A DNA stretch of 64,000 bases. Source: Tangfeifania diversioriginum (GTDB lineage Bacteria > Bacteroidota > Bacteroidia > Bacteroidales > Prolixibacteraceae). Below are positions 75 through 52,758 of the stretch, piece after piece. A program made the position numbers and the translations under genes. Each line of letters starts with the position of its first letter. Position 1 is the first letter of the stretch. The notes below the pieces were generated by a model. It was not told where the DNA came from and made no database searches. It worked only from the letters and a program-made list of their open reading frames with translations. The stretch spans positions 1-64,000 of the forward strand of contig CAMCBW010000017.1 of assembly GCA_945873105.1 (NCBI GenBank), written 5' to 3'.

Positions 75-149
75 CGCTTGTTCTTAAGTGAAAGCCAAAC
101 CTAAAGAACAAAAGGACAAATTAAAATACAGGGTTTACCGTATGCTTAC
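1..149 (-). mobile_element. Terminal part of an IS66-family insertion sequence, cut by the window edge
   Basis: Read on the minus strand, position 149 begins GTAAGCATACGGTAAACC, which resembles IS66-family terminal inverted repeats (these usually start GTAAGCG). About 75 bases further in is the start codon of a TnpA-like frame, the usual layout for IS66 elements. The boundary coincides with the point where the neighbouring HNH-like gene loses its frame. IS66 elements usually make 8-bp target duplications, so bases 150-157 (gtttgatt) would be expected again beyond the left edge of the window. The rest of the element lies outside the window. Confidence 0.6.
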
Positions 150-653
150 GTTTGATTCAGATTTCAATCCACGCTCATATTGAAAAATTGAATAATATTT
201 TTCATTTACAGATCGACCAATATACTTCATTGGCATTTGCGAAATCGTATTCTTTAATTGCTTACACAACTCGACAAAATCAGCTTCAAGATCTTTTGGT
301 ATGCCTTGACTTTTTAAATCATTATAAAATACTGAATAACCACCCCTATTCTTATATTCAAAAATTATCTTTTGAAACTGAACCCCAAATGCAAGCTTCG
401 CCGCACCATTAATTTGAGGTATATAAGCAGCCGATTCCAGAAATGGATAATAATATAACATCCATTTTTCAATTAATAGTCCCAATGGGAAATGAACCCT
501 TTCTTTTGAAAATGAAATATATGGTGAGTTATCTTGAATGATATCGATAATTCCTCGTAACAAGGCGAACTTATAGGTTGTTGATTTGCTTTCTCTCTCA
601 ATAATTTTACAAATGTTAGAGAAGACATTACTATTCGTACTTGTATGGATCAT
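135..653 (-). pseudogene. HNH-endonuclease-like protein, N-terminal fragment truncated by IS66 insertion
   Basis: The 172-codon frame starts at 653 and resembles the N-terminal region of Bacteroidota HNH-endonuclease proteins: an opening TTYKFALLRGIIDIIQ, then FPLGLLIEKWMLYYYP, and later PMKYIGRSVNEKYYSIF. The catalytic HNH/zinc-finger part expected further downstream is absent. The last four codons (VSIR) and the stop are supplied by the terminal sequence of the adjoining IS66-like element, so the native frame ends at about 150. The fragment therefore probably has no nuclease activity. The family assignment rests on recalled sequence patterns, not an alignment; the truncation is read directly. 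Confidence 0.55.
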
Positions 654-861
654 TTAGGAAAGGCTATTTAGAAAAAAGTTTGGAATACTTTTCAAGTTAA
701 AAGTATACATAATGCAAATATATTTATTCGAAAAATTGAGATAAATAATTCAATTTAACTTTCCAACTAAATCTAAACATTTTACATCGCAAAAGATCCC
801 CTCCCCTGCCGCTTTAATTTGGCGATCGCCGGTCGGGGAATGGCCTTTGATTTACGTCGGG
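654..861. other. Intergenic stretch, AT-rich, no gene seen
   Basis: This is the upstream region of the truncated HNH-like gene. It is AT-rich (about 660-790) and then passes into GC-rich repeat sequence. No convincing coding frame or conserved site was recognised. Confidence 0.4.
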
Positions 862-960
862 CTATGGATGGAGGCAGAGCCGCCCGCCGGGCGGCTGTAC
901 ATTTGGGATCCGGCTTTCCCTCAGAGACGTCCGCCGGACGTCTTTACATCGAATCCCGGT
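862..960 (+). repeat. GC-rich compound repeat, class 2, copy 1
   Basis: The segment GATGGAGGCAGAGCCGCCCG, followed by a GGGATCCGGCTTTCCCT core and then GACGTCCGCCGGACGTC (a near-perfect palindrome), recurs almost base for base at about 6002-6118. Shorter pieces occur at 1470-1500, 4668-4690 and 5012-5035. It usually sits directly 5' of a class 1 palindromic repeat, so the two behave as a mosaic. Any translated frame over it is an artefact. Confidence 0.6.
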
Positions 961-975
961 CGCACCGTACAGTCA

Positions 976-1096
976 CCCGTTCCGTAGGAACGAAATGTGG
1001 GTAGAAATATGCACCGATGTTGGATGCCGTCCCGGATGGGACGGGATTTCCCTGGTCTGGCAATTTCTACCCACCTGTCATCCCTGACGGGATGGA
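976..1096 (+). repeat. Class 1 palindromic (REP-like) repeat, copy 1, full length
   Basis: Each full copy has the same order. It starts with a hairpin CGTTCC-GTA-GGAACG, then an arm GTGGGTAGAAA, then a hairpin CCGTCCC-GGAT-GGGACGG. The complementary arm TTTCTACCCAC follows, and the copy ends with a hairpin CATCCC-TGAC-GGGATG. The two long arms would pair around the central hairpin, giving a compact multi-stem fold of about 120 nt. All copies in the window have the same orientation. Confidence 0.8.
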
Positions 1097-1201
1097 TGTA
1101 TAACATGGATTGGGTTTACAAATCAGATCTGACTGGGACGGATCCAATTCGTTTTTCATCGAAAATTTCAGTAACTTGTATTGGCTGGTCAAAAAAGAGA
1201 A

Positions 1202-1243
1202 ACGCTCCTCTCGGAGCGTCGGACCAAGGATGCTATCCTTGGT
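1202..1243 (-). terminator. Double hairpin with T-run, probable minus-strand terminator
   Basis: There are two perfect stems side by side: ACGCTCC/GGAGCGT (1202-1219, 4-nt loop) and ACCAAGGAT/ATCCTTGGT (1223-1243, 3-nt loop). Read on the minus strand, the second-met stem is followed directly by TTTCTCTTTTTT, the layout of an intrinsic terminator. The nearest minus-strand genes upstream are hicAB, ending about 260 nt before it. It could alternatively be the 3' end of a small structured RNA. Confidence 0.5.
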
Positions 1244-1423
1244 GATGTTTTGGTACTGCAAATATAAAGTGGAAAAATGACAGAAACAAAAATTGCATTA
1301 AAAAGAAAGAGTCATTGTTTTTAAAAAATCATTGCCATTTAATTCAGATTTACTTATTCCATCCTCCAAACACTTCCTTCCCACCCAAAATCAGTTCCCT
1401 TCCACCTCTCCGGCACCGTTCAT

Positions 1424-1500
1424 TTTTGGGCGGTCGCCGATCGGGCAAGGACCATTGGGGTACGCAAAGCAGTGGCGGATGGAGGCAGAGCCGCCTCACC
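1424..1500 (+). repeat. Class 2 repeat fragment
   Basis: This segment contains GGCGGTCGCCGATCGGGCAAGG, a stretch of accattggggtacgcaaagc, and GTGGCGGATGGAGGCAGAGC. The same order of blocks is found at about 5955-6030 and in part at 820-885. It ends abruptly a few bases before the hicB stop codon, so the repeat abuts the toxin-antitoxin module. Confidence 0.5.
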
Positions 1501-1504
1501 AGGA

Positions 1505-1909
1505 TTAAACCAACTTGATTCCAGCAAACTCGCGGGCAATTTTGTGCAGGGCTTCTTCAATTTTCAGCATCTGGTTCTCCGAAATATATTGATTCCCCGA
1601 TTTATATTGCCGCATCAACGAAGAATTGATTCCTGCCTCCTCTGCGAATTTGCTGACATTGATGAATTTGTAACAATCGAACAGTGAGGCCACATCGTAC
1701 CTGAACTCAAATTCGATCTCCTGCAATTCGGCGGGAAGCTGTCGCTGCATTTCTTCGTAGGCAGCAAGAACCTCTCGGACAGAGTTGTAAAAATCTTCTT
1801 TTGCTTTGGATACACTCTTCCCTTCGCCCACAATCGTATGCTTCAAATCCGGCGTAAAAATGCCAAAACTGCCATCCTTTCCCTTTTCAATCAATGCGAT
1901 CGTTTTCAT
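1505..1909 (-). CDS. hicB: HicB-like antitoxin with C-terminal helix-turn-helix
   Basis: The 134-residue protein starts at MKTIALIEKGKDGSFGIF, a HicB-fold N-terminus (partial RNase-H-like fold). It ends with an HTH segment, NVSKFAEEAGINSSLMRQYK, that would bind the operator. The start at 1909 is preferred over an in-frame ATG at 1948, because the longer version would overlap hicA and a GGAGAG lies 14 nt upstream of 1909. It follows hicA by 28 bp in the same direction. By family knowledge, HicB neutralises the HicA mRNA interferase and represses its own operon. The family match is clear, although HicB sequences vary widely. Confidence 0.8.
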   Translation of the reverse strand: MKTIALIEKGKDGSFGIFTPDLKHTIVGEGKSVSKAKEDFYNSVREVLAAYEEMQRQLPAELQEIEFEFRYDVASLFDCYKFINVSKFAEEAGINSSLMRQYKSGNQYISENQMLKIEEALHKIAREFAGIKLV

Positions 1910-1937
1910 TTCATTGTATATCTCTCCAATCGAAGGA

Positions 1938-2120
1938 TTAAAAACCAATCTGTTTTTTTAATTTGTGACAAAGTCCTGTTTTGACCTCCTGTGCTTCATG
2001 CCTGGCTATCTGGATGAAAAAATCCTTATCAGGGTGCGTATAGATATCATGCTCTTTCCCCCTCCGGTGCAAATACCAGCCGCGCTGTACCGCCTTTTTC
2101 CTGAGTTCTGACCACTTCAT
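1938..2120 (-). CDS. hicA: HicA-like mRNA interferase toxin
   Basis: This is a 60-residue basic protein with the HicA/YcfA double-stranded-RNA-binding fold. It begins KWSELRKKAVQRGWYLHRRG, followed by the conserved His in GKEHDIYTHP and a C-terminal KTGLCHKLKKQIGF. HicA toxins cleave mRNA using that His. The length is normal for the family. GGGAGGAG sits about 11 nt upstream of the ATG, an unusually good Shine-Dalgarno for this phylum, which would favour strong toxin translation. It is the first gene of the hicAB operon, and its promoter overlaps an inverted repeat at 2148-2169. Confidence 0.85.
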   Translation of the reverse strand: MKWSELRKKAVQRGWYLHRRGKEHDIYTHPDKDFFIQIARHEAQEVKTGLCHKLKKQIGF

Positions 2121-2143
2121 CGTGTAACTCCTCCCTGGCTAAA

Positions 2144-2169
2144 CAAATATATAACAATAATGTTATATA
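2144..2169 (-). promoter_or_regulatory. hicAB promoter -7 element overlapping an operator-like inverted repeat
   Basis: On the minus strand TATATTTG (2151-2144) matches the Bacteroidota -7 consensus TAnnTTTG and lies 24 nt upstream of hicA. It overlaps a perfect 9-bp inverted repeat, TATATAACA-ATAA-TGTTATATA, at 2148-2169. A repressor bound there would block the promoter, as expected for HicB autoregulation. No good TTG was found at -33. Confidence 0.6.
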
Positions 2170-2257
2170 GTATTCTTTATTTGAAATTTATTTCCTCCAC
2201 ATCAATTTTCCTATCATTAAAGTTACGGCATTAACAATTGAAAAACGAATCCTCGCT

Positions 2258-2350
2258 CCCGCGCGATTGCATCGTGGTATTCCCCCGGATGGGACGGGAT
2301 TTCCCCGGTCTGGCAAATTTCTACCCACCTGTCCTCCATGGCGGGATGGA
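2258..2350 (+). repeat. Class 3 palindrome joined to a 5'-truncated class 1 repeat (copy 2)
   Basis: The class 3 motif CCCGCGCGATTGCATCGTGG (2258-2277) is followed at once by the second half of a class 1 repeat (2282-2350). The retained part runs from the central GGATGGGACGGG through TTTCTACCCAC to a GCGGGATGGA end. The first hairpin and the 5' arm of class 1 are missing, so this copy can no longer make the long-range stem. Confidence 0.6.
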
Positions 2351-2396
2351 GGGGGTTCTTTTGCCTGGTGAGGCCGTTACTTTTTGTTCATCCATT

Positions 2397-2426
2397 TTGT
2401 TAATTCTTCAGGATTGACTAATTTTG
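2397..2426 (+). promoter_or_regulatory. Promoter of the MNT-domain gene
   Basis: TTG (2397-2399), exactly 19 bases, then TAATTTTG (2419-2426) matches the Bacteroidota housekeeping promoter TTG-N19-TAnnTTTG. The predicted transcript start near 2432 leaves a leader of about 17 nt before the ATG at 2449. It begins right after the truncated class 1 repeat. Confidence 0.65.
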
Positions 2427-2448
2427 TTTTGCACTGAAAGTCAATAAT

Positions 2449-2748
2449 ATGTATCTGGATAAATACACCGATGAGATCAATGCCTTATGTATTCAGCACA
2501 AGGTTAAATCGTTGTATGTATTTGGTTCTGTCTTAACAGATCATTTTTCAGAAAAAAGCGACATTGATCTGATCGTGGATATTGATGTAAACGACCCCTA
2601 TGATTATGCGGACAGGTATTTCGATTTAAAATTTGCTCTGGAGGATCTTCTGAACAGACCGATTGACCTGCTTGAAAACAAGGCCATCAAGAATCCATTT
2701 TTTCTTAAAAATATCGAACTGTCCAAATCATTTCTTTATGCCAGTTGA
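2449..2748 (+). CDS. Minimal nucleotidyltransferase (MNT) protein, orphan MntA-type antitoxin
   Basis: The 99-residue protein has the polymerase-beta-like nucleotidyltransferase signature: FGSVLTDHFSEKSDIDLIVD (GS...SDIDL) around residues 25-45 and a later acidic residue in RPIDLLE. By family knowledge, MNT proteins pair with a HEPN RNase and silence it, often by adenylylation. The HEPN gene normally overlaps or follows, but the next 670 bp contain only palindromic repeats and no helical HEPN-like frame. The promoter is intact, so the gene is probably expressed as an orphan. The partner may have been lost to repeat-driven rearrangement (inference). Confidence 0.75.
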   Translation: MYLDKYTDEINALCIQHKVKSLYVFGSVLTDHFSEKSDIDLIVDIDVNDPYDYADRYFDLKFALEDLLNRPIDLLENKAIKNPFFLKNIELSKSFLYAS

Positions 2749-3058
2749 TAAACCCCCGCTGGCGCGTATTTGCAATCTGTACCCCGCAAACTATAAAATT
2801 TCAGTCAATTAGCGCCAATAAATTCCAAAATACACCTTTCCTTTTATCCGGTTATCTTAGTTTAAAGATGCACCATCCTGCAAGGTGCAACTTCAGGTCC
2901 GAACGATCAGATGGAGGTTACAAATCTCCGGATTGAAGGGAAATATTTTCCAGTAAAAACAAAAAAAGGCGACTTATCGGAAAATATTTTCCACTAAAAT
3001 GAATATTTTCCCAAATAATTTCCGCTAAATTCATTTGTTGGCAATATTACAAATCCCC
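2749..3058. repeat. Gene-free region with small palindromes
   Basis: No gene is seen. It contains a CCGCTGGCGCGTATTTGCAA block related to 8518-8540, a hairpin TGCACC...GGTGCA near 2870-2890, and a run of degenerate direct repeats around AAATATTTTCCA-CTAAAA (2940-3030). Among these is the perfect 14-bp palindrome GGAAAATATTTTCC (2979-2992). Confidence 0.5.
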
Positions 3059-3063
3059 TCGCT

Positions 3064-3212
3064 GCCGCGCGATTGCATCGCGTGGTATTCCACTCCACCA
3101 AATAACAAGGTTACCGTCCAAAATTCAGCCGTCCCGGCATAGCCGGCAGCACTACAGTGAATTTAAAAGCAAGAATTAACTTTCATTCAACCACGCGATG
3201 AAATCGCGCGGG
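3064..3212. repeat. Two class 3 palindromes in inverted orientation
   Basis: CCGCGCGATTGCATCGCGTGG (3064-3085) and, facing it, CCACGCGATGAAATCGCGCGGG (3190-3212) bracket about 100 bp. Each is itself a near-palindrome, CGCGAT-n-ATCGCG. Other copies lie at 2258 and at 8456-8476. The inverted pair could form a small MITE-like unit. Confidence 0.5.
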
Positions 3213-3251
3213 AGCGGGGGTACACCGCATACATGCTGCACCGTATTGCCG

Positions 3252-3372
3252 CCCGTTCCGTAGGAACGAAATGTGGGTAGAAAAAAACGTTGAGGTTGAA
3301 TGCCGTCCCGTATGGGACGGGATTTCCCTGGTCTGGCAATTTCTACCCACATGTCCTCCCTGACGGGATGGA
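3252..3372 (+). repeat. Class 1 palindromic repeat, copy 3, full length
   Basis: All three hairpins and both long complementary arms are present. The central loop has GTAT where copy 1 has GGAT. It ends about 50 bp before the convergent stop codon of the DUF3037 gene. Confidence 0.8.
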
Positions 3373-3421
3373 TGTATAACATGGATTGGGTTGGTAAATC
3401 CACAAGCCGGGGAAAAGGAAG

Positions 3422-3805
3422 TTACCCCACCATTTCATCAAACAGGCTGTTGAATGTTTTTTCCAGGTCGGTGCTAAGGCCTGTGTGGGGGATGGAGGTT
3501 TGTATCGATGCACTGCGCACGGCGCTGAGCCATCGGAAACGTTCGGCCGGGTCGAGGGAGGCAATGGGTCCGCCCTCTTTTTCCCCGTAAGCGATGATGC
3601 GAAAAGCCTCCAGGTTTTTGCGGATCTCCTCTACCTCGGCATCAGGCCACAATGCCAGTAGCTTATCCAGCGGAAGATGGTACTTCATCCGGATGAATTT
3701 TCCCTTTTTACAGAACAGGATCACCCCGGCATTGACAAACTCTTCACGTTCGACTACCGGAACAACCCGTACAATGGCGTATTCATATTGTAGTTTCTGC
3801 TGCAT
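3422..3805 (-). CDS. DUF3037 domain protein
   Basis: The 127-residue protein begins QYEYAIVRVVPVVEREEFVN, then AGVILFCKKGKFIRMKY, the hallmark of DUF3037. The family has no established biochemical function. Its start lies 23 bp inside the 3' end of the upstream HipA-like gene, so the two are almost certainly co-translated. HipA-like kinase/DUF3037 pairs recur in bacterial genomes, which suggests that the proteins act together. No signal peptide or membrane segment is seen, so it should be cytoplasmic. Confidence 0.75.
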   Translation of the reverse strand: MQQKLQYEYAIVRVVPVVEREEFVNAGVILFCKKGKFIRMKYHLPLDKLLALWPDAEVEEIRKNLEAFRIIAYGEKEGGPIASLDPAERFRWLSAVRSASIQTSIPHTGLSTDLEKTFNSLFDEMVG

Positions 3806-4568
3806 CCTGGACGGTTTGAATAAACTGGTTTGAATAATTCAGACGGTTTCTTAAAAAAGTGAAATAGACGGTTCTCAATTGCTCCGGTGTTTCTTCCTGC
3901 AATTCCCATTGAAGCCATTGGTCGGGGATCAATTGGACGATTTCCCGGATTTTGGCTTCCGTAATGAGTTCCCTGCAAATCAGGTCTGCCTCTGCCATTT
4001 TGGTAGCCTGCGGCAGCAAAACATGCTCTTTGATATAGAGGAACGGACTGGTCGCCTTCTTCTCCCAACCCTCCCAGGTATATTGGAAATAGAGGCAGGA
4101 GCCATGATCGATCAGCCAAAGTTCTTTGTGCCAGATGAGCATGTTTGTATTGCGGAAGGATCTGTCCACATTGGTGATCAGACTATCCAGCCATACAATT
4201 TTGGAGGCCAGGAGCGGGTCTATCTTCATCACCGCCGGATCGTAGGTGAAGGCACCTGATAAAAAATGCAACCCCAGGTTCAAGCCCTGACTTGCCTTTA
4301 AAAGATCCTGGATCTCCTCATCTCCCTCGGAACGGCCAAAACATTCATCCAACTCCGCAAAAACGAGCTCGGGCACTTTCAAACCCAGCGCCCTGGCAAT
4401 CTCGCCTCCGATCAATTCAGCAATGAGCGTTTTTACCCCGTGTCCTCCGCCTTTGAACTTTACCACATACTTGAAGTCATCATCGGCTTCGGCCAATGCA
4501 GGCAATGAACCTCCTTCCCTCAGGGGTTGCATGTACCGGGTGACTGTAACTGTTCGAATAGGATCCAT
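3783..4568 (-). CDS. HipA-like kinase domain protein (stand-alone)
   Basis: The 261-residue protein has a HipA-type Ser/Thr kinase fold. A nucleotide-binding Lys lies in KYVVKFKGGGHGVKTLIAEL (about residues 33-52). A catalytic loop follows in LDSLITNVDRSFRNTNML (about 128-145), and a metal-binding Asp in LWLIDHG (about 150-157). It is shorter than canonical HipA (about 440 residues) and lacks the N-terminal HipA domain, as in the small HipA_2-type kinases. No HipB repressor is nearby; the partner is the overlapping DUF3037 gene. The target is unknown. A toxin-like role is possible but not shown. Confidence 0.75.
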   Translation of the reverse strand: MDPIRTVTVTRYMQPLREGGSLPALAEADDDFKYVVKFKGGGHGVKTLIAELIGGEIARALGLKVPELVFAELDECFGRSEGDEEIQDLLKASQGLNLGLHFLSGAFTYDPAVMKIDPLLASKIVWLDSLITNVDRSFRNTNMLIWHKELWLIDHGSCLYFQYTWEGWEKKATSPFLYIKEHVLLPQATKMAEADLICRELITEAKIREIVQLIPDQWLQWELQEETPEQLRTVYFTFLRNRLNYSNQFIQTVQDAAETTI

Positions 4569-4711
4569 AAGGAGGGTAAAAGTAATGATTGTCCACCGCT
4601 AAAAGAATGAAAATTCTCAAAATATTAATCAGTCGGAATGCGCGGAACATTCGGTTAATCCAATCTCCGCCGGACGTCTGTACACCGCATCTATGCTGCG
4701 CCGTACAGTCG

Positions 4712-4830
4712 CCCGTTCCGTTAGGAACGAAATATGGGTAGAAAAATGTGCCGAGGTTGAATGCCGTCCCGGATGGGACGGGATTTCCCTGGTCTGGCAA
4801 ATTTCTACCCACCTGTCCTCCCTGACGGGA
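4712..4830 (+). repeat. Class 1 palindromic repeat, copy 4
   Basis: The copy is near full length. The first hairpin has one extra T in its loop (CGTTCC-GTTA-GGAACG), and the final hairpin ends early at GACGGGATC. It is preceded by a class 2 fragment containing CCGCCGGACGTCTGTACACC. Confidence 0.75.
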
Positions 4831-4879
4831 TCAATATTTTAGGATAGAACAAGCAATTTTTGGGTTCTGCTTCAATAGC

Positions 4880-4995
4880 AACGGCATTTATGCCGTTGTA
4901 TCAATGTGTGTGCAACATGGGCTTTAGCCCAAACGGTCTTTTGGGCTAAAGCCCGTTGTCGTTTGTTTCTTAGGCCGTAGCCTGAAGGCTACGGC
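4880..4995. repeat. Cluster of three perfect hairpins between genes
   Basis: There are three consecutive stems: AACGGCAT/ATGCCGTT (4880-4897), GGGCTTTAGCCCAA/TTGGGCTAAAGCCC (4919-4954) and GCCGTAGCC-TGAA-GGCTACGGC (4974-4995). They differ in sequence from the class 1-3 repeats. Nothing resembling a coding frame overlaps them. They may be another palindromic repeat family or a structured RNA. Confidence 0.6.
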
Positions 4996-5035
4996 TATTG
5001 AAAGATCGACACCGTGGCGGATAAAGGCAGAGCCG

Positions 5036-5221
5036 CCCGTTCCGTAGGAACGAAATGTGGGTAGAAAAAAACGTTGAGGTTGAATGCCGTCCCGTATGGG
5101 ACGGGATTTCCCTGGCCTGGCAAATTTCTACCCACATGCCATCCCTGACGGGATGGATTTACACATTAGATTTGATTTAAAAGTCGACGCATGCCCAATT
5201 TAGCATGATCTTAAAATAAAT
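5036..5221 (+). repeat. Tandem unit A: class 1 repeat (copy 5) plus 65-bp tail
   Basis: A full class 1 repeat (5036-5157) is followed by a non-palindromic tail beginning TTTACACATTAGATTTGATT and ending CTTAAAATAAAT. The whole is repeated directly downstream as unit B. A class 2 fragment precedes it (5012-5035). Confidence 0.75.
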
Positions 5222-5411
5222 CCCCGTTCCGTCAGGAACGAAATGTGGGTAGAAAAAATGCGTTGAGGTGGGATGCCGTCCCGGATGGGACGGGATTTCC
5301 GTGGGCTGGCAATTTCTACCCACATGCCATCCCTAACGGGATGGATTTACACATTAGATTTGATTTAAAAGTCGACGCATGCCCAATTTAGCATGATCTT
5401 AAAATAAATCG
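5222..5411 (+). repeat. Tandem unit B: class 1 repeat (copy 6) plus identical tail
   Basis: This is the second member of the tandem pair. Its roughly 70-bp tail (5340-5410) is identical to that of unit A. The class 1 part differs at several places: GTCAGGAACG, GGTGGGATGCCG, a GGAT loop, CCGTGGGCTGG and CCCTAACGGG. Confidence 0.75.
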
Positions 5412-5495
5412 GCATGGGTTCCGGTTCTAATAAACAGTTTTAAAATCGCGTTTAAATTTAGTACCAAATGAGATTTTGAAATTCACACGTAAATA

Positions 5496-5588
5496 TTATA
5501 GGTAAATAATTGAATATCTGTTCGTACCTATGGAACTCGCAAAGTGGTTTACATAGCCTTTTGTTGACTTAGTCCATGCTCGTTTCAT
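5496..5588 (-). pseudogene. Short coupled frame, possible remnant of a toxin gene
   Basis: An ATG at 5588 overlaps the antitoxin stop codon (ATGA) and opens a 30-codon frame starting MKRAWTKSTKGYVNHF and ending at a TAA. The overlap is the translational coupling expected for the second gene of a toxin-antitoxin pair. The frame is far too short for a RelE/ParE toxin (about 90-100 residues), and I do not recognise its sequence. It may be the decayed start of a toxin or chance. Confidence 0.3.
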
Positions 5589-5785
5589 GCGTTTAACTTA
5601 TTCATCATGTCATCAACGCCTTCGCATGCAGTTACCTTTCCTTTTTTGACATCCTTGATGGCCCGAATAGTTTCAGCATTTGGCTTTTTCTGAAAATTGA
5701 TGAATTCCTCTCCTTCGAATTTTCTCAGTATTTCCAACAGCATTTTTCCCTTGCTCGTTCTTTCGTTGATCGTAACGGTTGTCAT
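5585..5785 (-). CDS. Small antitoxin-like protein (orphan)
   Basis: The 66-residue protein begins MTTVTINERTSKGKMLLEIL and ends in an acidic, helical tail. It resembles the short Bacteroidota antitoxins whose N-terminal strand and helix bind DNA while the C-terminus wraps a RelE/ParE-type toxin. No full-length toxin gene follows, only a 30-codon coupled frame and then repeats. A promoter-like TATATTTG lies 16 nt upstream of the ATG. It may function as an orphan regulator or anti-toxin against toxins encoded elsewhere (inference). Confidence 0.55.
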   Translation of the reverse strand: MTTVTINERTSKGKMLLEILRKFEGEEFINFQKKPNAETIRAIKDVKKGKVTACEGVDDMMNKLNA

Positions 5786-5800
5786 TGTGTTGATTTTTTA

Positions 5801-5808
5801 CAAATATA
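5801..5808 (-). promoter_or_regulatory. -7 element of the small antitoxin gene
   Basis: The minus strand reads TATATTTG, a perfect TAnnTTTG, so transcription would start about 10 nt before the ATG at 5785. An ACATATGT palindrome lies just upstream (5811-5818) and could be an operator. No TTG is placed at -33. Confidence 0.45.
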
Positions 5809-6001
5809 CAACATATGTCCAAATGCTGTATTTTGAAACGTCTCAATTAAGTTGCCGATTGGTTCCATTCGTATTGGCAATCTTTCTCTCGTGTCGCCTT
5901 GCAAATCCTCTGCCTCCACTTAAAACAATCTCCCCTATAACCTTTTAGGCTCCGTTCTTTTGGCGGTCGCCTGTTGGGAAAGGACCATTGTGGTAAACCG
6001 A

Positions 6002-6183
6002 GCCGTGGCGGATGGAGGCAGAGCCGCCCGCCGGGCGTCTGTACATTCGGGATCCGGCTTTCCCTGGAGACGTCCGCCGGACGTCTTTACACCCCATTAT
6101 TGCTGCACCGTGCAGCCGCCCGTTCCGTAGGAACGAAATGTGGGTAGAAAAATGCGCCGAGGTTGAATGCCGTCCCGGATGGG
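6002..6183 (+). repeat. Class 2 repeat copy joined to a 3'-truncated class 1 repeat (copy 7)
   Basis: The class 2 block (6002-6118) closely matches 862-960. It leads directly into the first half of class 1 (6119-6183), which stops inside the central hairpin at CCGTCCCGGATGGG. The following bases (6186-6245) are the unrelated ctttgtgtcttggtgccttgg type sequence often seen in Bacteroidota intergenic DNA. Confidence 0.65.
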
Positions 6184-6248
6184 CATTGTCATTAAGTTAA
6201 GAGATTTCTTTGTGAACCCTTTGTGTCTTGGTGCCTTGGTGGCGGGAA

Positions 6249-7685
6249 TTAAGTGCCACAATAGGTTGCATAGTCATTATCAAAACCCGGAGGTGGCGGA
6301 AGGATAAAATGGACCAAATTTTCCTGGTAATGATAGGGTTTGCGCAACACCATCATCAATTGCTCCAGTAAGTTAAGATTTCCAGTTACTGCTGCGTCCA
6401 GTGCTTCTTCCACCAAATGATTCCGTGGTACAAATGCCGGATTATTCTCTTTCATCCTGTTTTTTGACTGCTCATCTCCATTGGATTTGTTGAGGATGCT
6501 TTTCCATTTGTCCAGCCAGGGTTTGAATTCAGGACCGGCCAGGATGCCTTCTCCGGTAACTTTATCGTGGGTTAGCGCCAGGAAGGTATTGGTATAATCC
6601 AGTTTCAGCTGAAGCATCAAGGCCAGCAGTTCATCCACCAACCAATACAACTCCGGAGCCTTTTTTTCGATACCCAATTTTAAAAGCATCATTTCATAAT
6701 ATTTTTCCACCCAAATGACCTCAAATTGATCGATGCAGGCCTGGGCCAATTGCAAGGCTGTGGAAGGTTCAGGATCTATCACCGGCAACAAGGCCTCCGC
6801 CAATCTGGCCATGTTCCATTTGATCATGTTGGGTTGGTTGCCAAAGGCATAGCGCCCGGTTTTGTCGATGGAGCTGTAAACAGTTTCAGGGTGATAGGTG
6901 TTCATGAAGGCGCATGGGCCATAATCAAATGTTTCGCCGCTGATGGATACATTGTCCGTATTCATCACCCCGTGGATAAAACCAACCCGCATCCAGTTCA
7001 CCACCAAATCAATTTGAACGGTCATCACTTTTTTTAGCAAACCGAGTGCCGGACTCGCCCCGTCTTTCATTTCAGGATACAGGCGATGGAGGGTATAATC
7101 GCTGAGCGCCTGTAAATCTTCGGTGGTTCCTGCATGCCTGGCATATTCAAAAGTTCCTATCCGGATATGACTCTTCATGACCCTTGCCAATACTGCTCCA
7201 ACCTGTTTAGTTTCACGTTGAACCAATTCTCCTGTCTTTGCCACCAGCAAACTCCTGGAAGTAGGGATATTCAGGTGGTGCATGGATTCACTTACCAGGT
7301 ACTCCCGCAGCATTGCCTTTAAAGTCGCCTTTCCATCTCCACCCCTTGAATAGCGCGTTCTTCCGCTTCCCTTGAGTTGTATGTCAAATCGTTGGTTGGA
7401 AGCTGTGATCCATTCACCCATCACGATGGCCCTTCCATCCCCCAGATTGGTGAAATTTCCAAATTGGTGACCTGCATAAGCCTGGGCAAAAGGGGAAGTT
7501 TTGCCATCGGATTCATCTCCCAATAAAAAAGAGAGAAGATCCTTTTGATGGGTCAATGGAATAGCAAGTTCTTCCAGCAAGGCCCCATTGAGCAGCACTG
7601 TTTCAGGTTTGCTGAACGAAGCAGGTTTTACAAGCTGGTAAAACTTACCAGGAAGGGACAAATAGGAATATTCCAGGTTAAACAT
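6249..7685 (-). CDS. selO: SelO (YdiU/UPF0061) protein adenylyltransferase
   Basis: SelO is a pseudokinase-fold enzyme that transfers AMP from ATP to protein hydroxyl groups (AMPylation), with redox-related targets in known members. The protein shows GNFTNLGDGRAIVMGEW near the N-terminal nucleotide site, RETKQVGAVLARVMKSHIR, and the metal-binding pair NTDNVSISGETFDYGPC. The C-terminus is CGT, with Cys at the third-last position where other bacteria have Cys or Sec for a regulatory disulfide. Starting at MFNLEYSY gives 478 residues, the usual family length. The longer in-frame extension runs over the upstream gene and is rejected. It overlaps the DUF2237 gene by 8 bp. Confidence 0.9.
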   Translation of the reverse strand: MFNLEYSYLSLPGKFYQLVKPASFSKPETVLLNGALLEELAIPLTHQKDLLSFLLGDESDGKTSPFAQAYAGHQFGNFTNLGDGRAIVMGEWITASNQRFDIQLKGSGRTRYSRGGDGKATLKAMLREYLVSESMHHLNIPTSRSLLVAKTGELVQRETKQVGAVLARVMKSHIRIGTFEYARHAGTTEDLQALSDYTLHRLYPEMKDGASPALGLLKKVMTVQIDLVVNWMRVGFIHGVMNTDNVSISGETFDYGPCAFMNTYHPETVYSSIDKTGRYAFGNQPNMIKWNMARLAEALLPVIDPEPSTALQLAQACIDQFEVIWVEKYYEMMLLKLGIEKKAPELYWLVDELLALMLQLKLDYTNTFLALTHDKVTGEGILAGPEFKPWLDKWKSILNKSNGDEQSKNRMKENNPAFVPRNHLVEEALDAAVTGNLNLLEQLMMVLRKPYHYQENLVHFILPPPPGFDNDYATYCGT

Positions 7686-8043
7686 GGCTCTTTTCTGCGT
7701 GAAGGATAAGGTCATTGATGGCAACATATTCCAATGCACTTTCATCGGTTGCCTCCAATACCACTTTTGGGGCAAAACCTGCTTCAAAAGCCTCTTTCCA
7801 TCTCAACGCACACAAGCACCATTGATCACCGGGTTGTAATCCAGGAAAACCATATTCAGGCCGTGGTGTTGTCAAGTCGTTTCCCCTGCTTTTTGAATAG
7901 TGAAGAAATTCTGAGGTAACGACGACACAGACGACATGCTTTCCGAGGTCTTCTTCATTTGTCCGGCAAAATCCGTCCCTGAAAAATCCGGTGATTGGTT
8001 TTGTGCAGCACGATTTTAAGGGCTCTCCAAATATATTTTTCAT
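7678..8043 (-). CDS. DUF2237 family protein
   Basis: The 121-residue protein carries the nearly invariant family signature: NIFGEPLKSCC, PITGFFRDGFCRT, SKSRGNDLTTPRPEYGFPGL, GDQWCLCALRWKEAFEAG and APKVVLEATDE. The function is not established; the conserved Cys residues and the WCLCA motif hint at metal or redox chemistry (inference). It is the first gene of a two-gene operon, and its stop overlaps the selO start by 8 bp, so translation is probably coupled. It may work in the same oxidative-stress context as SelO. Confidence 0.85.
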   Translation of the reverse strand: MKNIFGEPLKSCCTKPITGFFRDGFCRTNEEDLGKHVVCVVVTSEFLHYSKSRGNDLTTPRPEYGFPGLQPGDQWCLCALRWKEAFEAGFAPKVVLEATDESALEYVAINDLILHAEKSHV

Positions 8044-8171
8044 TCTTTAATCTGTTAAGGTGTAATTTGAAATTCCATCTGTGAAATGAAAGATGGGAAT
8101 AAGCAACGAACTGATAGTAAACAGCAAAATATTGGCTGCATGCTAAAATGTTAAGCAATGTACAATTGAAT

Positions 8172-8285
8172 AATGTCGTACTTTTTTCTTTGCGAACTTA
8201 GCGGGCTTTGCGCGAAACTATTGGCAAATAGCCCAAAATTGGAGAATTTCAAACTACGACATTTAATCGTTCTTCTAACTTAAAC
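8172..8285 (+). repeat. Dispersed structured repeat, copy A
   Basis: About 110 bp that recur in opposite orientation at 30277-30386. The outer part carries a 9-bp inverted repeat AATGTCGTA (8172-8180) / TACGACATT (8255-8263). Inside are GGGCT/AGCCC and CTATT/AATAG complementary stretches, so one long hairpin can form. The tail reads TAATCGTTCTTCTAACTTA. It lies upstream of the DUF2237-selO operon. Confidence 0.65.
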
Positions 8286-8455
8286 GAATTTTTATGGCTC
8301 AGGATTCGTTTTTGGAGAAATGGGGTTTCCTGTAGCTGGTTCTTGTCCCGCTATTTAAGACATTGCATCAAATATTTAATAACACCAGTTCTTATTTAAG
8401 TTTTTTGCAAAGAACTTAAATAAGAACAATCTTTGTTTAACTTATTCCCCAGCTC

Positions 8456-8476
8456 CCGCGCGATTACTTCGCGTGG
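8456..8476 (+). repeat. Class 3 palindrome
   Basis: CCCGCGCGATTACTTCGCGTGG is the same family as at 2258, 3064 and 3190. It is followed by a stretch related to 3170-3190 (ttaaatgaaagctaattc) and by a CGCTGGCGC block. The surrounding gap 8286-8545 contains no gene. Confidence 0.5.
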
Positions 8477-8545
8477 TTAAATGAAAGCTAATTCTGACTT
8501 TTGCTTCATAGCATCCCCACGCTGGCGCTGATTTGCAATCATATA

Positions 8546-8669
8546 CCCGTTCCGTAGGAACGAAATGTGGGTAGAAAAAAGCGTTGAGGTTGAATGCCGT
8601 CCCGGATGGGACGGGATTTCCCTGGGCTTGGCAAATTTCTACCCACCTGCCATCCCTGACGGGATGGAT
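8546..8669 (+). repeat. Class 1 palindromic repeat, copy 8, upstream of the transposase
   Basis: It is full length with all hairpins intact. It ends 93 bp before the transposase ATG and has the same orientation as the copy after the gene. Confidence 0.8.
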
Positions 8670-8762
8670 GGACAGAAGATTTTTGTAATAATCCTCCTTC
8701 GAATTTCCATTTCTCAATTTTATGTAGTAACTTATTGAGGATTACAACTAATCAATTAAAAT

Positions 8763-9227
8763 ATGGCCAATACCTATACACAAGTACACATCCATGCTGT
8801 GTTTACAGTTCAAAGCCGAAATTGCATTATCCATCAATCCTGGAAAGAAGAATTATACAGGTATTTGACTGGAATAGTTCAGAAAAATGGACACAAATTA
8901 TTGGCAATTAACGGTATGCCTGATCATATCCATTTACTATTTGGGATGAGACCTACGCAGTCCTTGTCCGATCTTATGCAAGATGTCAAGGGTGATTCAT
9001 CAAAATGGATCAACAACAAAAGGCTTATCAAAAGCCACTTTTCCTGGCAAGAAGGATATGGAGCATTTTCATACAACAAATCAGGTGTAAACAGTATAAT
9101 CGATTACATAAAAGATCAGGAATTGCATCATCGAAAAAAAACCTTTGTAGAGGAATATCATGAATTCCTAGAGAAATTCGAGGTTGATTTTGACGAAAGA
9201 TACCTGTTTATCCCTGTTGAATATTAA
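8763..9227 (+). CDS. tnpA: IS200/IS605-type HUH single-strand transposase (Y1), REP-associated
   Basis: The 154-residue protein has a Y1 transposase fold. The metal-binding HUH motif is H55-I-H57 in GMPDHIHLLF, and the nucleophilic Tyr is Y115 in SIIDYIKDQELHH. WQEGYGAFSYNKS, between them, is typical of the Bacteroidota branch. Such enzymes cut and rejoin single-stranded DNA at short hairpins. All catalytic residues are present and the length is normal, so the protein looks functional. No tnpB partner is nearby. The flanking class 1 palindromes suggest a domesticated RAYT-like role. Confidence 0.85.
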   Translation: MANTYTQVHIHAVFTVQSRNCIIHQSWKEELYRYLTGIVQKNGHKLLAINGMPDHIHLLFGMRPTQSLSDLMQDVKGDSSKWINNKRLIKSHFSWQEGYGAFSYNKSGVNSIIDYIKDQELHHRKKTFVEEYHEFLEKFEVDFDERYLFIPVEY

Positions 9228-9235
9228 TGCCTGCA

Positions 9236-9358
9236 CCCGTTCCGTAGGAACGAAATGTGGGTAGAAAAAAGCGTTGAGGTTGAATGCCGTCCCGGATGGG
9301 ACGGGATTTCCGTGGGCTGGCAATTTTCTAACACCTGTCCTCCCTGATGGGATGGATG
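9236..9358 (+). repeat. Class 1 palindromic repeat, copy 9, downstream of the transposase
   Basis: It begins 9 bp after the transposase stop codon. The 3' arm is slightly eroded (TTTTCTAACACC instead of TTTCTACCCACC), and the last hairpin has TGAT in its loop. It is the last copy seen in the window. Confidence 0.75.
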
Positions 9359-9386
9359 GACAGATGCGCCAAAGGATCCGTGGAGG

Positions 9387-10034
9387 TCACTCCATCAACT
9401 GGGCAAGGTCATCGATCACCGGCACCCCGGCGCCTTTCAGGCGGTCGTGCGACTGGTGGCCGTTGGCGGTGAGCAGGCAGGCGATGCCCAACTCAGCGGC
9501 TACCTCAAAATCGTGGAGGGTATCACCGATCAGCAAGAGATCAGCGGGAGGATGGGGCAGTTTGGCCAGCAGCGCCTTGCCAGATTCCAGTTTGGAATGG
9601 GCATAGTGGTCGCCGAGCCCCGACACATGGCCGAAAAAATGGCCGATCCGGTAGAATTCCATGCATTGGTCGAGGGTCTCCTGCTGCATGGCCGAGAGGA
9701 TGTACTGTGCAATTCCCAATCCCTTGAAATGGTTCAGCACCCGGAGGACCTCCGCATGAAGGGAGCAATCCCATACCTCCCGGTTGTAACGGTCGATGAA
9801 CTCCATGGCCGGAATCTCGAAGGGCTCCTGCTCAAAATCAAACCCAACTTCACGGTAGTAATCCTTGACGGGGAAGGTGAAGAGCGCCTTGTAGCGGTCG
9901 ACCGACAGTGCCGGCAACCCGCGCCTGGCGAGCATGCCGTTCATGGCAGCTACCGCCAGGTGGGTGTCATCCAGCAGGGTGCCATTCCAGTCCCAAACAA
10001 TGCCTTTGTATTGATTGATTTCAGCACGCTTCAT
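9387..10034 (-). CDS. HAD-superfamily hydrolase, phosphoglycolate-phosphatase-like
   Basis: The 215-residue protein has motif I at VWDWNGTLLDD (nucleophile D15), a helical cap at about 25-90, motif II SA in YILSAMQQ, motif III Lys in HSKLESGKALL, and motif IV GDTLHDFEVAAELG. The second Asp of DxDGT, normally the general acid/base, is Asn here (DWNGT), a variant also found in some HAD phosphatases of this phylum. It probably dephosphorylates a small metabolite, but the substrate cannot be read from sequence. It is monocistronic with its own promoter at 10100-10129. Confidence 0.8.
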   Translation of the reverse strand: MKRAEINQYKGIVWDWNGTLLDDTHLAVAAMNGMLARRGLPALSVDRYKALFTFPVKDYYREVGFDFEQEPFEIPAMEFIDRYNREVWDCSLHAEVLRVLNHFKGLGIAQYILSAMQQETLDQCMEFYRIGHFFGHVSGLGDHYAHSKLESGKALLAKLPHPPADLLLIGDTLHDFEVAAELGIACLLTANGHQSHDRLKGAGVPVIDDLAQLME

Positions 10035-10099
10035 ATTCTTAAAATCACAGATTGCCCACTCTTCGGAAAGAGGAACCCCTCCTTGTCAGAATGGTGGAG

Positions 10100-10129
10100 T
10101 AAATTTAAACTTCTTCGGTCAGGATGCAA
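10100..10129 (-). promoter_or_regulatory. Promoter of the HAD hydrolase gene
   Basis: The minus strand reads TTG (10129-10127), exactly 19 bases, then TAAATTTA (10107-10100), which has one mismatch to TAnnTTTG. It lies about 65 bp upstream of the start codon. Confidence 0.5.
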
Positions 10130-10427
10130 GGGTGGTCCGTGGAAAAAGCTTTCCTTTCTATCTATTTCGTATTAAATCAAAATTGTCCACATTTTGACCA
10201 CGAAAGAACAGATTCCGATCTCTATTTTTATGCTTCTTTTGTGAAAGAAGGCAATCTGTAGATTAGAGGCCTTTATCTTGTGAAAAATGAGTTGACCGGG
10301 GCAGACCGGAGAAAGGTCTGTTTCCGGTCTATTCATGAAAAACCGATCCACCACTGCCGGCCTGCAAAACCTTTCTTCAATTTTTGCGTACATAAGGCCA
10401 TAAAAATTAACCCTTAAACTATTTCTT
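10130..10427. other. Intergenic region upstream of the DUF1761 gene
   Basis: About 300 bp lie between divergent genes. Apart from the HAD promoter at its left edge, no clear TTG-N19-TAnnTTTG promoter, hairpin or gene was recognised. Confidence 0.4.
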
Positions 10428-10844
10428 ATGGTTTATCCATTCATCAATGTTTGGGCCGTGCTGGCAGGCACGCTGGCCCTTTGGGTGCTGGGCGCCCTTT
10501 GGTATAGTCCGGTATTGTTTGGGAAAATCTGGCAAAAAGAGGTTGGATTCAAGGAAGAGGGGGTGACGACAGGGAATTTGGCCATGGTATTTGGCCTGAG
10601 TTTTCTGGTGATGCTCTTCATGGTATGGGCCTTGAATTTCGTGATCAATTCGCACAAACCTGAGGATGTCAGCTTGTTAAGCGGATTGCATTACGGTGCC
10701 TTTGTGGGTTTTTTCTTCTCCATGATGACCATGGGTGTCAATTATCTTTACCAGCGCCGCTCCCTGATCCTTTGGCTGATCGATGGCTTTTACATGGTGA
10801 TCGGGTTGGGAATTGCCGGCATGATTCTGGGAAGTTGGAGGTAG
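10428..10844 (+). CDS. DUF1761 integral membrane protein
   Basis: The 138-residue protein has four predicted membrane helices (about 8-28, 50-72, 85-108 and 112-134). The DUF1761 signature is LGALWYSPVLFGKIWQKE after the first helix. The function of the family is unknown. It stands alone and converges on the sulfatase operon. Confidence 0.8.
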   Translation: MVYPFINVWAVLAGTLALWVLGALWYSPVLFGKIWQKEVGFKEEGVTTGNLAMVFGLSFLVMLFMVWALNFVINSHKPEDVSLLSGLHYGAFVGFFFSMMTMGVNYLYQRRSLILWLIDGFYMVIGLGIAGMILGSWR

Positions 10845-10909
10845 GAGGAAGGATTTGGGTTGTTGAAATGAAAAGTTGAGGCGACTAGAATACCCCCATT
10901 ATTTAAAAA

Positions 10910-10956
10910 ATTAACGAACATTTGCGCTGAATTAATTTGCGCAAATGTTCGTTAAT
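10910..10956 (-). terminator. Perfect 18-bp hairpin with T-run, terminator of the sulfatase genes
   Basis: Arms 10910-10927 and 10939-10956 are perfectly complementary (ATTAACGAACATTTGCGC and its reverse complement) with an 11-nt loop. On the minus strand the stem is followed by TTTTTAAAT. It lies 56 bp beyond the stop of the minus-strand sulfatase gene at 11012. Confidence 0.6.
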
Positions 10957-11011
10957 GCATCAAATCCCAACTCAAAGCAAGTTAAGTACATCCAATGTAT
11001 TTCCATGGGAA

Positions 11012-12526
11012 TCACTTCCCGAAAAGCCCGGTATTGCCTTTTTGCAAAACTGGCATCAATTGCCTGACCACCTCTGGATGATCCCCTGCAATATTTCTAT
11101 TTTCATTGGGATCTGAAAGATGATCGTACAACTCAATGGTGGGTTCCTCCTTCCGGAAATAGGTGGTAAGCCGGTATCTTTCTGTCCTTAGGCTGATGCC
11201 ATTGTTGAAGTAGCCATAAGCAGCTTCATTCCAGGAAGTGGTGGCAGGATTCTTCATCAATGGCACGAAACTTTTGCCATCCGTTTCAAAGGGCATGGTG
11301 GTGCCGCACAACTCCATCAGGGTTGGATAAATATCGACAGAGCTTACTACCCGATCGATTCGTGTTCCAGCCTGCCCTGAATTTGGCATTTTTACGATGA
11401 GAACACTCCGCAAGGCCCGCTCAAATATGGTGTGTTTGCCCCAAACAAGCTGGTCACCCAGGTGCCATCCATGATCTCCCCAAACTACCACGATGGTATT
11501 TTCTGCGAGTCCCAACCTCTCCAACTCCTCCAGTACCTTTCCAATCTGTGCATCCACATAGCTGACCGCTGCGAAATAGGCATGCCTCACCTTTCGGGCA
11601 TAGGCATCTGAAAGAGGTTTTTCCAGCGCAGCATTTTCATCACCCGCCTTGTACCCATTAAATTCGCCACTCTGATGCAAACTGGCTTTGTTCACATGCT
11701 CCGGCACATGGGGGGAGGGCGTTAATTCAATCTTACTTTCGTCATACAGGTCCCAGTACTTTGAAGGTGCATTGAATGGAAGATGCGGTTTAAAAAAACC
11801 AACCCCCAGGAAAAAGGGTTGATCGCGTTTGGACAGTTCTCCCAACTTTTTTACAGCCAGCCGGGCAGTCAATCCATCCACGTAACCATCGTCCTCCACC
11901 TTCCCTCTTTCATAGGGTTTAACCTGCCCCTTCATGCTCTGACGGTTTTCACCATCTGCATAACCAAAAAAGGCATTCCATCCGGTCTTCCACTTTCCGG
12001 GATCAAACACCAGTTCATTCCAGCTATGGGGAAGCTCCCGCTCTGTGCCAACCGGATCAGTGTATCCATAGAGCAATCCATCCACATAATGGCTGATTTT
12101 GCCGATCCCAACAGTATGGTAGCCATCCCTTTTCAGGTGGTGGATAAATGTCTCAGGCCTGGCTTCTTCCGGTTTTCCGGAGATGAATTTCCGGCAAGCC
12201 TCATTGCTGAGGTGCCCTTTGCTTGCAGGCAATAAGCCGGTAAGCAGACTGGCGCGGGATGCCCCACAGGTTGGTACCTGTGTAAAATGGTTGTTGAAGA
12301 CCATACCTGAGGATCCGAGTTTGTCCAGATTTGGGGACTTTATGTAATTTGCCCCGTAGCAGCCAAGTTCCGGACGAAGGTCATCGACACAGATAAAAAG
12401 GACGTTGGGTCTCTTGGCCTCCTTTGATATTGCCCCAGCATCCGAACTGAAAAGTTGTACGATTGAAAAGAGTAAAATAGGATAAGGCGACTGCATCATA
12501 GGTTGAGAAAAAAAACCGGTATTCAT
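11012..12526 (-). CDS. Sulfatase, iduronate-2-sulfatase-like (type I, Cys-type)
   Basis: This is a secreted type I sulfatase that hydrolyses sulfate esters from glycans. Starting at MNTGFFSQP (12526) gives 504 residues with an N-terminal hydrophobic signal. The calcium-binding pair is in VLFICVDDLRPELGCYG, and the formylglycine motif is TCGASRASLLTG (Cys near residue 87, to be oxidised by a maturase not encoded here). Later motifs are HLPF and WGDHGWHLGDQLVWGKHT, the latter typical of iduronate-2-sulfatase relatives. A longer start at 12583 would overlap the upstream gene. It follows the other sulfatase by 7 bp. The exact substrate is uncertain. Confidence 0.8.
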   Translation of the reverse strand: MNTGFFSQPMMQSPYPILLFSIVQLFSSDAGAISKEAKRPNVLFICVDDLRPELGCYGANYIKSPNLDKLGSSGMVFNNHFTQVPTCGASRASLLTGLLPASKGHLSNEACRKFISGKPEEARPETFIHHLKRDGYHTVGIGKISHYVDGLLYGYTDPVGTERELPHSWNELVFDPGKWKTGWNAFFGYADGENRQSMKGQVKPYERGKVEDDGYVDGLTARLAVKKLGELSKRDQPFFLGVGFFKPHLPFNAPSKYWDLYDESKIELTPSPHVPEHVNKASLHQSGEFNGYKAGDENAALEKPLSDAYARKVRHAYFAAVSYVDAQIGKVLEELERLGLAENTIVVVWGDHGWHLGDQLVWGKHTIFERALRSVLIVKMPNSGQAGTRIDRVVSSVDIYPTLMELCGTTMPFETDGKSFVPLMKNPATTSWNEAAYGYFNNGISLRTERYRLTTYFRKEEPTIELYDHLSDPNENRNIAGDHPEVVRQLMPVLQKGNTGLFGK

Positions 12527-52729: not shown

Positions 52730-52758
52730 AAATGCGGGAGGGAGGTGGAAATAATTAC

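Follow-up and report, generated by a model that had tools for sequence, protein, structure and literature searches.

Tagged palindromic repeats beside an IS200-side TnpA gene of Tangfeifania diversioriginum: a probable REPtron-like system in Bacteroidota

The tnpA locus and its repeats

The subject of this study is a 64,000-nucleotide stretch of the Tangfeifania diversioriginum genome (the window; positions 1-64000 of contig C17 in a 5.36-Mb draft assembly of 99 contigs, hereafter G000), in which a gene for a small HUH/Y1 transposase-like protein, tnpA, lies between two copies of a palindromic repeat of about 123 nt, the class 1 repeat. These two copies are on the same strand and are 94% identical, and seven further copies occur within 8 kb. 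All nine have the same orientation (+ strand) and fall within positions 976 to 9364; seven are nearly complete and two truncated. The features are:

8763..9227, + strand: tnpA, encoding an HUH/Y1 transposase-like protein of 154 aa with the subclass 1.2 signature (DHIH, WQ, YIKDQELHH); identified from an intact open reading frame (ORF), profiles, alignments and predicted fold
8546..8669, + strand: left class 1 composite (H1 hairpin, tag GGGTAGAAA, core hairpin, tag complement, H3 hairpin)
9236..9360, + strand: right class 1 composite, 8-9 nt after the tnpA stop; its right tag is degenerate (TTTTCTAACACC)
976..1098, + strand: class 1 composite
2284..2353, + strand: class 1 composite, 5' truncated
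3252..3374, + strand: class 1 composite
4712..4831, + strand: class 1 composite
5036..5158, + strand: class 1 composite; forms a tandem repeat of about 187 bp with the 5223 copy, common 3' flank included
5223..5346, + strand: class 1 composite, second of the tandem pair with 5036
6119..6183, + strand: class 1 composite, 3' truncated inside the core hairpin

This arrangement agrees with the initial annotation, which had set tnpA between two class 1 repeats of the same orientation, with seven more copies within 8 kb, and had the right-hand repeat beginning 9 bp after the stop codon. The 16-mer of the first hairpin occurs six times in the window against 0.29 expected, and the core 18-mer has nine matches against 0.03 expected, two of the nine being the same palindromic sites on the opposite strand; neither count was reached in any of 100 shuffles. 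Elsewhere in the genome, class 1 matches are either shorter (29-31 nt at 90% identity) or at most 78% identical, as are all those longer than 65 nt, and among six candidates scored per genome the seven other genomes of the genus yielded a single match, of 52 nt at 83% (G030). Judged by sequence similarity, the class 1 repeat proper is found only in the window cluster.

A second class of palindromic repeat (for example CGTCCGCCGGACGTC, followed by TTTACA or TGTACA) is present at window positions 866-1000, 4666-4721 and 6010-6128. Repeats of the CGTCCGCCGGACGTC type stand directly upstream of several class 1 copies and are common to those copies.

TnpA belongs to the IS200 side of the family

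The product of 8763-9227 had been read as an IS200-like TnpA with an intact HIH motif and Tyr115, and this identification holds: HIH occupies residues 55-57, Gln119 follows Tyr115 by four residues, and Pfam Y1_Tnp matches the protein at E 1.4e-28. An alignment of 43 sequences shows no variation at H55, H57, Y115 or Q119, and the same four residues together with W95, Q96, H122 and H123 are invariant in both TnpA alignments. TnpA scores 75.5 bits with the NCBIfam IS200 profile, above the cut-off of 55, and 38.6 bits with REP_Tyr_transpos (NF047646), below the cut-off of 80. The AlphaFold model (pLDDT, its confidence score, 92.4) has the TnpA proteins of ISDra2 and IS608 as its best structure matches, with the REP-associated tyrosine transposase 4er8 at rank 30 (REP, repetitive extragenic palindrome). 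The Y---NP motif of class 2 TnpA_REP enzymes, or REP-associated tyrosine transposases (RAYTs), is absent, TnpA having Y---Q--HH in its place.

These features correspond to subclass 1.2 of Quentin et al. (2018; PMC6006769), whose row in Table 1 of that article gives a size of 101, a distribution of 'Cyanobacteria Bacteroidetes' and REP 'no'; the YIKDQELHH, DHIH and WQ of TnpA all match the row. The low copy number and divergent paralogues of the subclass are also found, in a comparison that covers its Bacteroidota side: the genome encodes six TnpA paralogues, of which the other five are 35-58% identical to that of the window. The multiple near-identical gene copies characteristic of IS200/IS605 elements (subclass 1.1) are not seen, there being one copy of this tnpA and a next best at 58% identity. 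On its sequence, the window TnpA is a class 1 (IS200-side) enzyme with the subclass 1.2 signature and not a class 2 RAYT.

A covarying three-hairpin structure

The complete repeat unit comprises, in order, hairpin H1, the tag GTGGGTAGAAA, a core hairpin CCGTCCCGGATGGGACGG, the complement of the tag and hairpin H3. For a 128-nt stretch that includes the left repeat, the predicted folding energy is -33.4 kcal/mol as single-stranded DNA (shuffles -16.7, z -6.1) and -63.2 kcal/mol as RNA (z -5.8), values that 0 of 200 shuffles reached; the fold contains three hairpins and a long-range stem. This fold, with the covariation below, bears out the earlier description of the repeat as a structure of about 120 nt with just these elements.

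A search with the tags alone (GGTAGAAA-N42-70-TTTCTACC) across our family sample of 140 Prolixibacteraceae genomes returned 91 places against 14 for a backwards control on one strand, a few of the 91 being devoid of a core hairpin and looking like chance. Matches came from 36 genomes, the present one having the most (20). At 33 places found by their tags, an H1 stem of at least 5 was present in 30 (shuffled 3.2), a core stem of at least 6 in 30 (shuffled 1.4) and an H3 stem of at least 5 in 26 (shuffled 4.0). When 32 composites were aligned, an alignment that leaves out L017, 90.0% of cells paired against 33-55% for slid structures, a control that leans somewhat towards the structure, since this came from one of the rows and the rows are related to one another. 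Changes on both sides of a pair that leave a standard pair intact were counted in 113 cells against 39.8 when shuffled, and 0 of 500 shuffles were as high; two of the five measures, the number of pairs and that of pair types, do not exceed shuffles. Two pairs of the tag stem covary, perhaps because they pair, perhaps only because a single enzyme has to read both ends.

Tagged hairpins accompany many subclass 1.2 genes

Homologues were taken as the best 80 of 586 homologous places in species genomes (one scan). By their record titles most of these loci are from Bacteroidota, the exceptions being bins called Methylococcaceae (L056), Planctomycetaceae (L091), Ignavibacteria (L084, L105), and Balneolaceae and Rhodohalobacter (L096, L130). 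The contig binned as Methylococcaceae encodes a TnpA at 69% identity with two composites after its stop codon, a case of either horizontal transfer or mis-binning. Within the family sample, 121 of 140 genomes have a TnpA match. Among the best 50 of 190 plasmid records the first two matches are at 51.7% and 39.2% identity and the others at 34% or less, and 50,697 phage records gave four matches, all weak.

The most enriched 8-mers within 300 bp on either side of the 80 homologues are pieces of the hairpins and the tag GGTAGAAA: CCGTTAGG occurs 86 times against 0.8 expected, CCCGTAGG 65 against 0.5, and GGTAGAAA 70 against 1.9. We defined a tagged hairpin strictly, as a stem of 5 or more with a loop of 2-5, then a gap of 7-9 nt and [AG]TAG[AC]A. 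Such a motif lies within 400 bp at 52 of the 76 loci with usable flanks, compared with 14 of 420 distal ORFs (Fisher p 1e-38), and on both sides of the gene at 20 of the 76; fifty shuffled sets gave a mean of 0.58 and at most 3 of 76. Its density is 2.79 per kb at 0-250 bp from tnpA and at most 0.14 per kb in every bin beyond 1 kb. The units tend to inversion, with 51 on the + strand and 16 on the - strand upstream, and 37 on the - strand and 21 on the + strand downstream. A looser definition matched 62 of 76 loci; in the controls it was also satisfied by 104 of 779 tiles and 61 of 420 ORFs, and it was tightened to the one used here.

A covariance model of the repeat, built from 30 composites of the family, replaced a first composite finder with fixed tag strings that had missed visible composites. 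At E of 0.01 or below and with strands merged, it places 144 matches in 62 of the 80 loci, 142 of them within 1 kb of tnpA and two farther away (0.77 per kb near tnpA against 0.0023 per kb), many of the weaker matches being, in our reading, a tag-hairpin pair rather than a full composite. The initial annotation had allowed that its proposal would fail if homologues were never adjacent to such repeats; adjacent repeats are what many of the relatives have. Composites surround tnpA in G093 (three) and G081 (three) and adjoin it in G015; 14 other tnpA stretches contained none by the pattern applied there, and that of contig C89 had one, 1.7 kb away.

Across all loci after deduplication, tagged hairpins flank 83 of 118 Y---Q--HH (subclass 1.2) genes, 0 of 9 Y---Q genes that lack HH and 1 of 17 Y---NP genes. 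Both control classes are small: two of the nine Y---Q genes (L075, L092) belong to the same group by similarity, and 13 of 30 RAYT-profile loci gave no row in the Y---NP control. The canonical layout of class 2 TnpA_REP, a GT[AG]G foot at the hairpin, was seen in 2 of 118 flanks, a rarity that would account for the negative result of an automatic search for it. The 2018 description has subclass 1.2 without associated REP or IS200-like structures, and the 83 of 118 genes depart from it; in our view it is the description of the subclass that needs correcting, not the placement of TnpA. In the titles and abstract openings, largely of open-access articles, that were consulted, there is no report of repeats for subclass 1.2, and in that part of the literature the 3'-tagged hairpin is not described for it. 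The REP/RAYT-like system of the initial annotation survives in the pairing of enzyme and repeat, which extends far beyond the locus, and needs revision in the class of its enzyme.

Could the gene and its flanking repeats be an ordinary IS200/IS605 insertion sequence, with the hairpins as its ends and the additional copies as degenerate ends? The IS200 profile score, a fold like those of the ISDra2 and IS608 TnpA proteins and hairpins on either side of the gene are all as expected of such an element. However, the gene is single-copy with paralogues of merely 35-58% identity, repeat-only copies outnumber gene copies, and the tag is present at 0 of 7 Y---Q genes outside the group. The tendency of flanking units to inversion is also contrary to this explanation, the ends of IS200/IS605 elements not being known to form inverted repeats, and we consider it very improbable.

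Tags diverge with the enzyme

The 9-nt linker and tag upstream and downstream of the same gene differ on average by 1.95 mismatches, compared with 4.37 after permutation (p 1e-4, n=37). Distances between TnpA proteins correlate with distances between linker and tag sequences (Mantel r 0.51, p 1e-4, n=83), mismatches rising from 1.9 at less than 15% protein distance to 6.5 at more than 60%. The tag is of the GGTAGAAA type, with variants TATAGAA, TGTAGAA and CAATAGAA in other subgroups, and on the TnpA tree tag type changes 8 times, against a mean of 26.6 and a minimum of 21 in 500 shuffled labellings.

Within the present genome, five of the six paralogues each adjoin their own, different family of palindromic repeat: class 1 at C17, GTCCCGTAGGGACGATATATTTA at C27, GCTCCGGAGGAGCGATCTGTTTGTAG at C46 and other palindromes at C83 and C2. 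At C27 and C46 the repeats form tandem arrays of 52-nt and 51-nt units respectively. Beside the sixth paralogue, on C89, are a tandem array of 21-bp units and an inverted pair of 23 nt.

The hairpin-tag arrays of 52- and 51-nt units beside two paralogues (L156:5394-5549 and L157:2426-2682) could be mistaken for CRISPR arrays. The 21-bp array before the C89 paralogue differs from a 21-bp tandem array in the window (CTAAGG..TGTACA, 52504-52755), which also contains tandem repeats of about 290-306 nt at 35584-36166 and 37724-39063, possibly repeated protein domains.

A further alternative is that the hairpins act mainly as RNA, as terminators or translation-blocking structures that regulate tnpA and its neighbours. 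Their RNA fold is strong, the window copies sit between the longer ORFs (short mechanical ORFs do overlap them), and in several relatives, for example L056, L058, L059, L089 and L093, a model match starts no more than 20 nt past the tnpA stop codon. Window positions 1-12000 have no Rfam match at E 0.1, which means only that the repeat is not a catalogued RNA. Regulation would leave unexplained the two-sided match of tags, their co-divergence with the protein and the copies that lie kilobases from tnpA, and it seems to us a poor candidate.

Dispersed copies and genomes that lack TnpA

Under stricter filters the covariance model matches at least 25 distinct places in this genome and is found in 78 of the 140 family genomes. 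The initial annotation had proposed comparing genomes with and without tnpA, abundant repeats in the latter being evidence against a link, and such evidence is there in part: class-1-like composites are present in 74 of the 121 genomes that have a TnpA match and in 4 of the 19 that do not (Fisher p 0.002), one of these, G101, having nine model matches. The exact tag pattern is present in 35 of 121 and 1 of 19 genomes respectively (p 0.026); some genomes in this comparison are incomplete. G116 has 13 model matches and a marginal TnpA match only.

Many dispersed class-1-like copies are enclosed in elements of about 170 bp with AGA[AG]ACTGTTTAAATTT terminal inverted repeats (TIRs), as seen in G002, G009, G027 and, several times, G000. 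Six of these copies (L169, L170, L171, L174, L183, L184) have, by eye, identical 3-bp flanks, which L172 and L173 do not; some (L180-L182, L185) have a single clear TIR end. In this genome the TIR half-site occurs at 61 places with at most one mismatch, compared with 6 for a control. The TIR-bounded elements with 3-bp flanks indicate that a TIR-using transposase probably moved those copies.

Several elements of this kind in G000 deserve separate mention. L275-L279 (contigs C76, C30, C46, C48 and C21) measure about 170 bp, have AGA[AG]ACTGTTTAAATTT ends and enclose a class-1-like composite; L275-L278 are identical over their initial 60 nt and lie at contig ends or starts with the same end of the element, which suggests recent spread. 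A more numerous insertion with the same TIR has an interior that starts near ATAACACAGAGAATA (L266-L274, L280-L285).

It is possible, though on balance unlikely, that the repeats as a whole are cargo of miniature inverted-repeat transposable elements (MITEs) of the DDE type, spread by a different transposase that acts on the TIRs, and that their link to tnpA is historical. The enclosed composites, the identical 3-bp flanks, the excess of half-sites and the four contig ends or starts that carry a MITE end all favour this. Against it, none of the 61 half-sites is on contig C17, so at that stringency the window copies lack the TIR expected of such MITEs; three near-identical copies in G025 show no TIR within 75 nt and have longer flanks in common; and the 142 of 144 model places beside tnpA are not what MITE spread predicts. 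Nor was an autonomous element with these TIRs recognised, in a limited look by eye for a transposase among the ORFs of L281 and L282, two of 20 stretches, with no profile search. The earlier proposal that class 1 repeats spread by way of TnpA keeps its footing for the repeat proper, which was found only in the cluster, and probably loses it for the many class-1-like copies inside TIR-bounded MITEs elsewhere.

Discussion

Cognate palindromic repeats beside the gene, together with repeat-only copies elsewhere, are the arrangement of a REPtron, and we think it probable that here a TnpA of the IS200 side (subclass 1.2) operates a REPtron-like system. Gene and repeat are paired, the structure covaries, the ends match, tag and protein diverge together, the units have sharp edges and the HUH, Tyr and Gln motifs of the enzyme are complete.

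Several observations weigh against this reading. The 5036 and 5223 copies with their common 3' flank make up a 187-bp tandem repeat, and homology extends 46-161 nt upstream in the pairs 976/6119 (about 160 nt) and 976/4712. Since homology beyond the unit in some local pairs means that duplication accounts for part of the cluster, we considered whether ordinary segmental duplication and recombination could have produced the whole cluster without any part played by TnpA. In the pairs 976/8546, 3252/8546, 3252/9236 and 8546/9236, however, homology ends within 7 nt of the unit edges, and composites beside tnpA recur in other genomes; duplication as the sole cause appears to us quite unlikely, and the cluster seems to have been built by unit-sized spread and duplication both.

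The remaining points concern the survey and the locus itself. By the criteria used the motif is absent at 35 of 118 subclass 1.2 genes and at 18 of the 80 loci, and composites are present in 4 of the 19 TnpA-negative genomes. The definition of the tag was refined on the same 80 loci on which it was scored, and at least one scored locus (L058, from the same contig as G093:C198) contributed sequences to the covariance model. In a first Mantel run with best-match scoring (n=52) the correlation was r 0.20 (p 0.015), and that for the stem arm was not significant (r 0.09, p 0.12). No empty site or excision product was found: the gene for an HAD protein downstream of tnpA has a match in 4 of the 8 genus genomes, G000 included, and three relatives (L287-L289; surrounding ORFs listed for the first two) align to the window only within that gene.

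In its DHIH, WQ and Y---Q--HH motifs, length of about 150 aa, low copy number, divergent paralogues and occurrence in Bacteroidetes, the enzyme resembles subclass 1.2 as tabulated in PMC6006769, from which it differs in having tagged hairpins where REPs are listed as 'no'. With the REPtrons of E. coli, Stenotrophomonas and Marinomonas, it has in common a low-copy HUH enzyme, cognate palindromes around the gene and a repeat family for each gene. Marinomonas REPtrons Ma and Mb have their REPs concentrated around tnpA (PMC8266576), a pattern that the enrichment reported here parallels. Unlike those systems, the present one has Y---Q--HH in place of Y---NP, a tag 7-9 nt 3' of the hairpin in place of GT[AG]G 0-2 nt 5' of it, and a composite of about 123 nt with a third, core hairpin. 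It resembles IS608 and ISDra2 of the IS200/IS605 family in catalytic fold, in HUH, Tyr and Gln residues and in hairpins beside the gene, and differs in not being multi-copy and in the inversion of its units; no tnpB was recognised by eye among the window ORFs, and no profile search for tnpB was made.

Like REPINs and BIMEs (composite REP elements, described in part in PMC6006769), the class 1 repeat consists of two inverted units that can fold into one long structure and exists as repeat-only copies, but it is longer and has a conserved core hairpin and paired tags. The GTAG and CGTC REP superfamilies (PMC3733652) likewise combine palindromes with a short unpaired tag, and the commonest of our tags includes the string GTAG, whereas the tag of our repeats lies 3' of the hairpin and at a distance. 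That article reports GTAG repeats from Proteobacteria, Cyanobacteria, Chloroflexi and the PVC group, and CGTC repeats from five phyla, Bacteroidetes among them, the CGTC repeats not being adjacent to transposase genes.

By analogy with IS608, ISDra2 and TnpA_REP we infer that TnpA binds these repeats, cleaves at the tag and mobilises them, and the following mechanism may be proposed. The repeat unit would be a hairpin followed, 7-9 nt to its 3' side, by a tag of the GGTAGAAA type, and two facing units would make the composite of about 123 nt, in which the tags pair into an 11-bp stem beneath the core hairpin and so bring H1 and H3 side by side. On DNA made single-stranded by replication or repair, a TnpA dimer would bind H1 and H3 and cut at or near the tag, which would serve as guide or cleavage site. 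The composite would then be moved or copied to nearby single-stranded DNA, with the gene remaining in single copy.

More broadly, we lean towards the view that subclass 1.2 constitutes a second, separately built kind of REPtron, distributed across the Bacteroidota, with a lineage-specific 3' code of hairpin, linker and tag that is the same at both ends of the element, and with three-hairpin composites that amplify beside the gene. As the tag changes with the enzyme, it could be a readable specificity code. If this is correct, single-strand DNA enzymes that have been catalogued without a substrate would acquire one, and REP-like systems would be known from both sides of the family, IS200 and RAYT. 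Dozens of natural enzyme-tag pairs would also become available for testing how cut sites are chosen, and there would be an explanation for the palindromic repeats that stand beside such genes in many Bacteroidota genomes.
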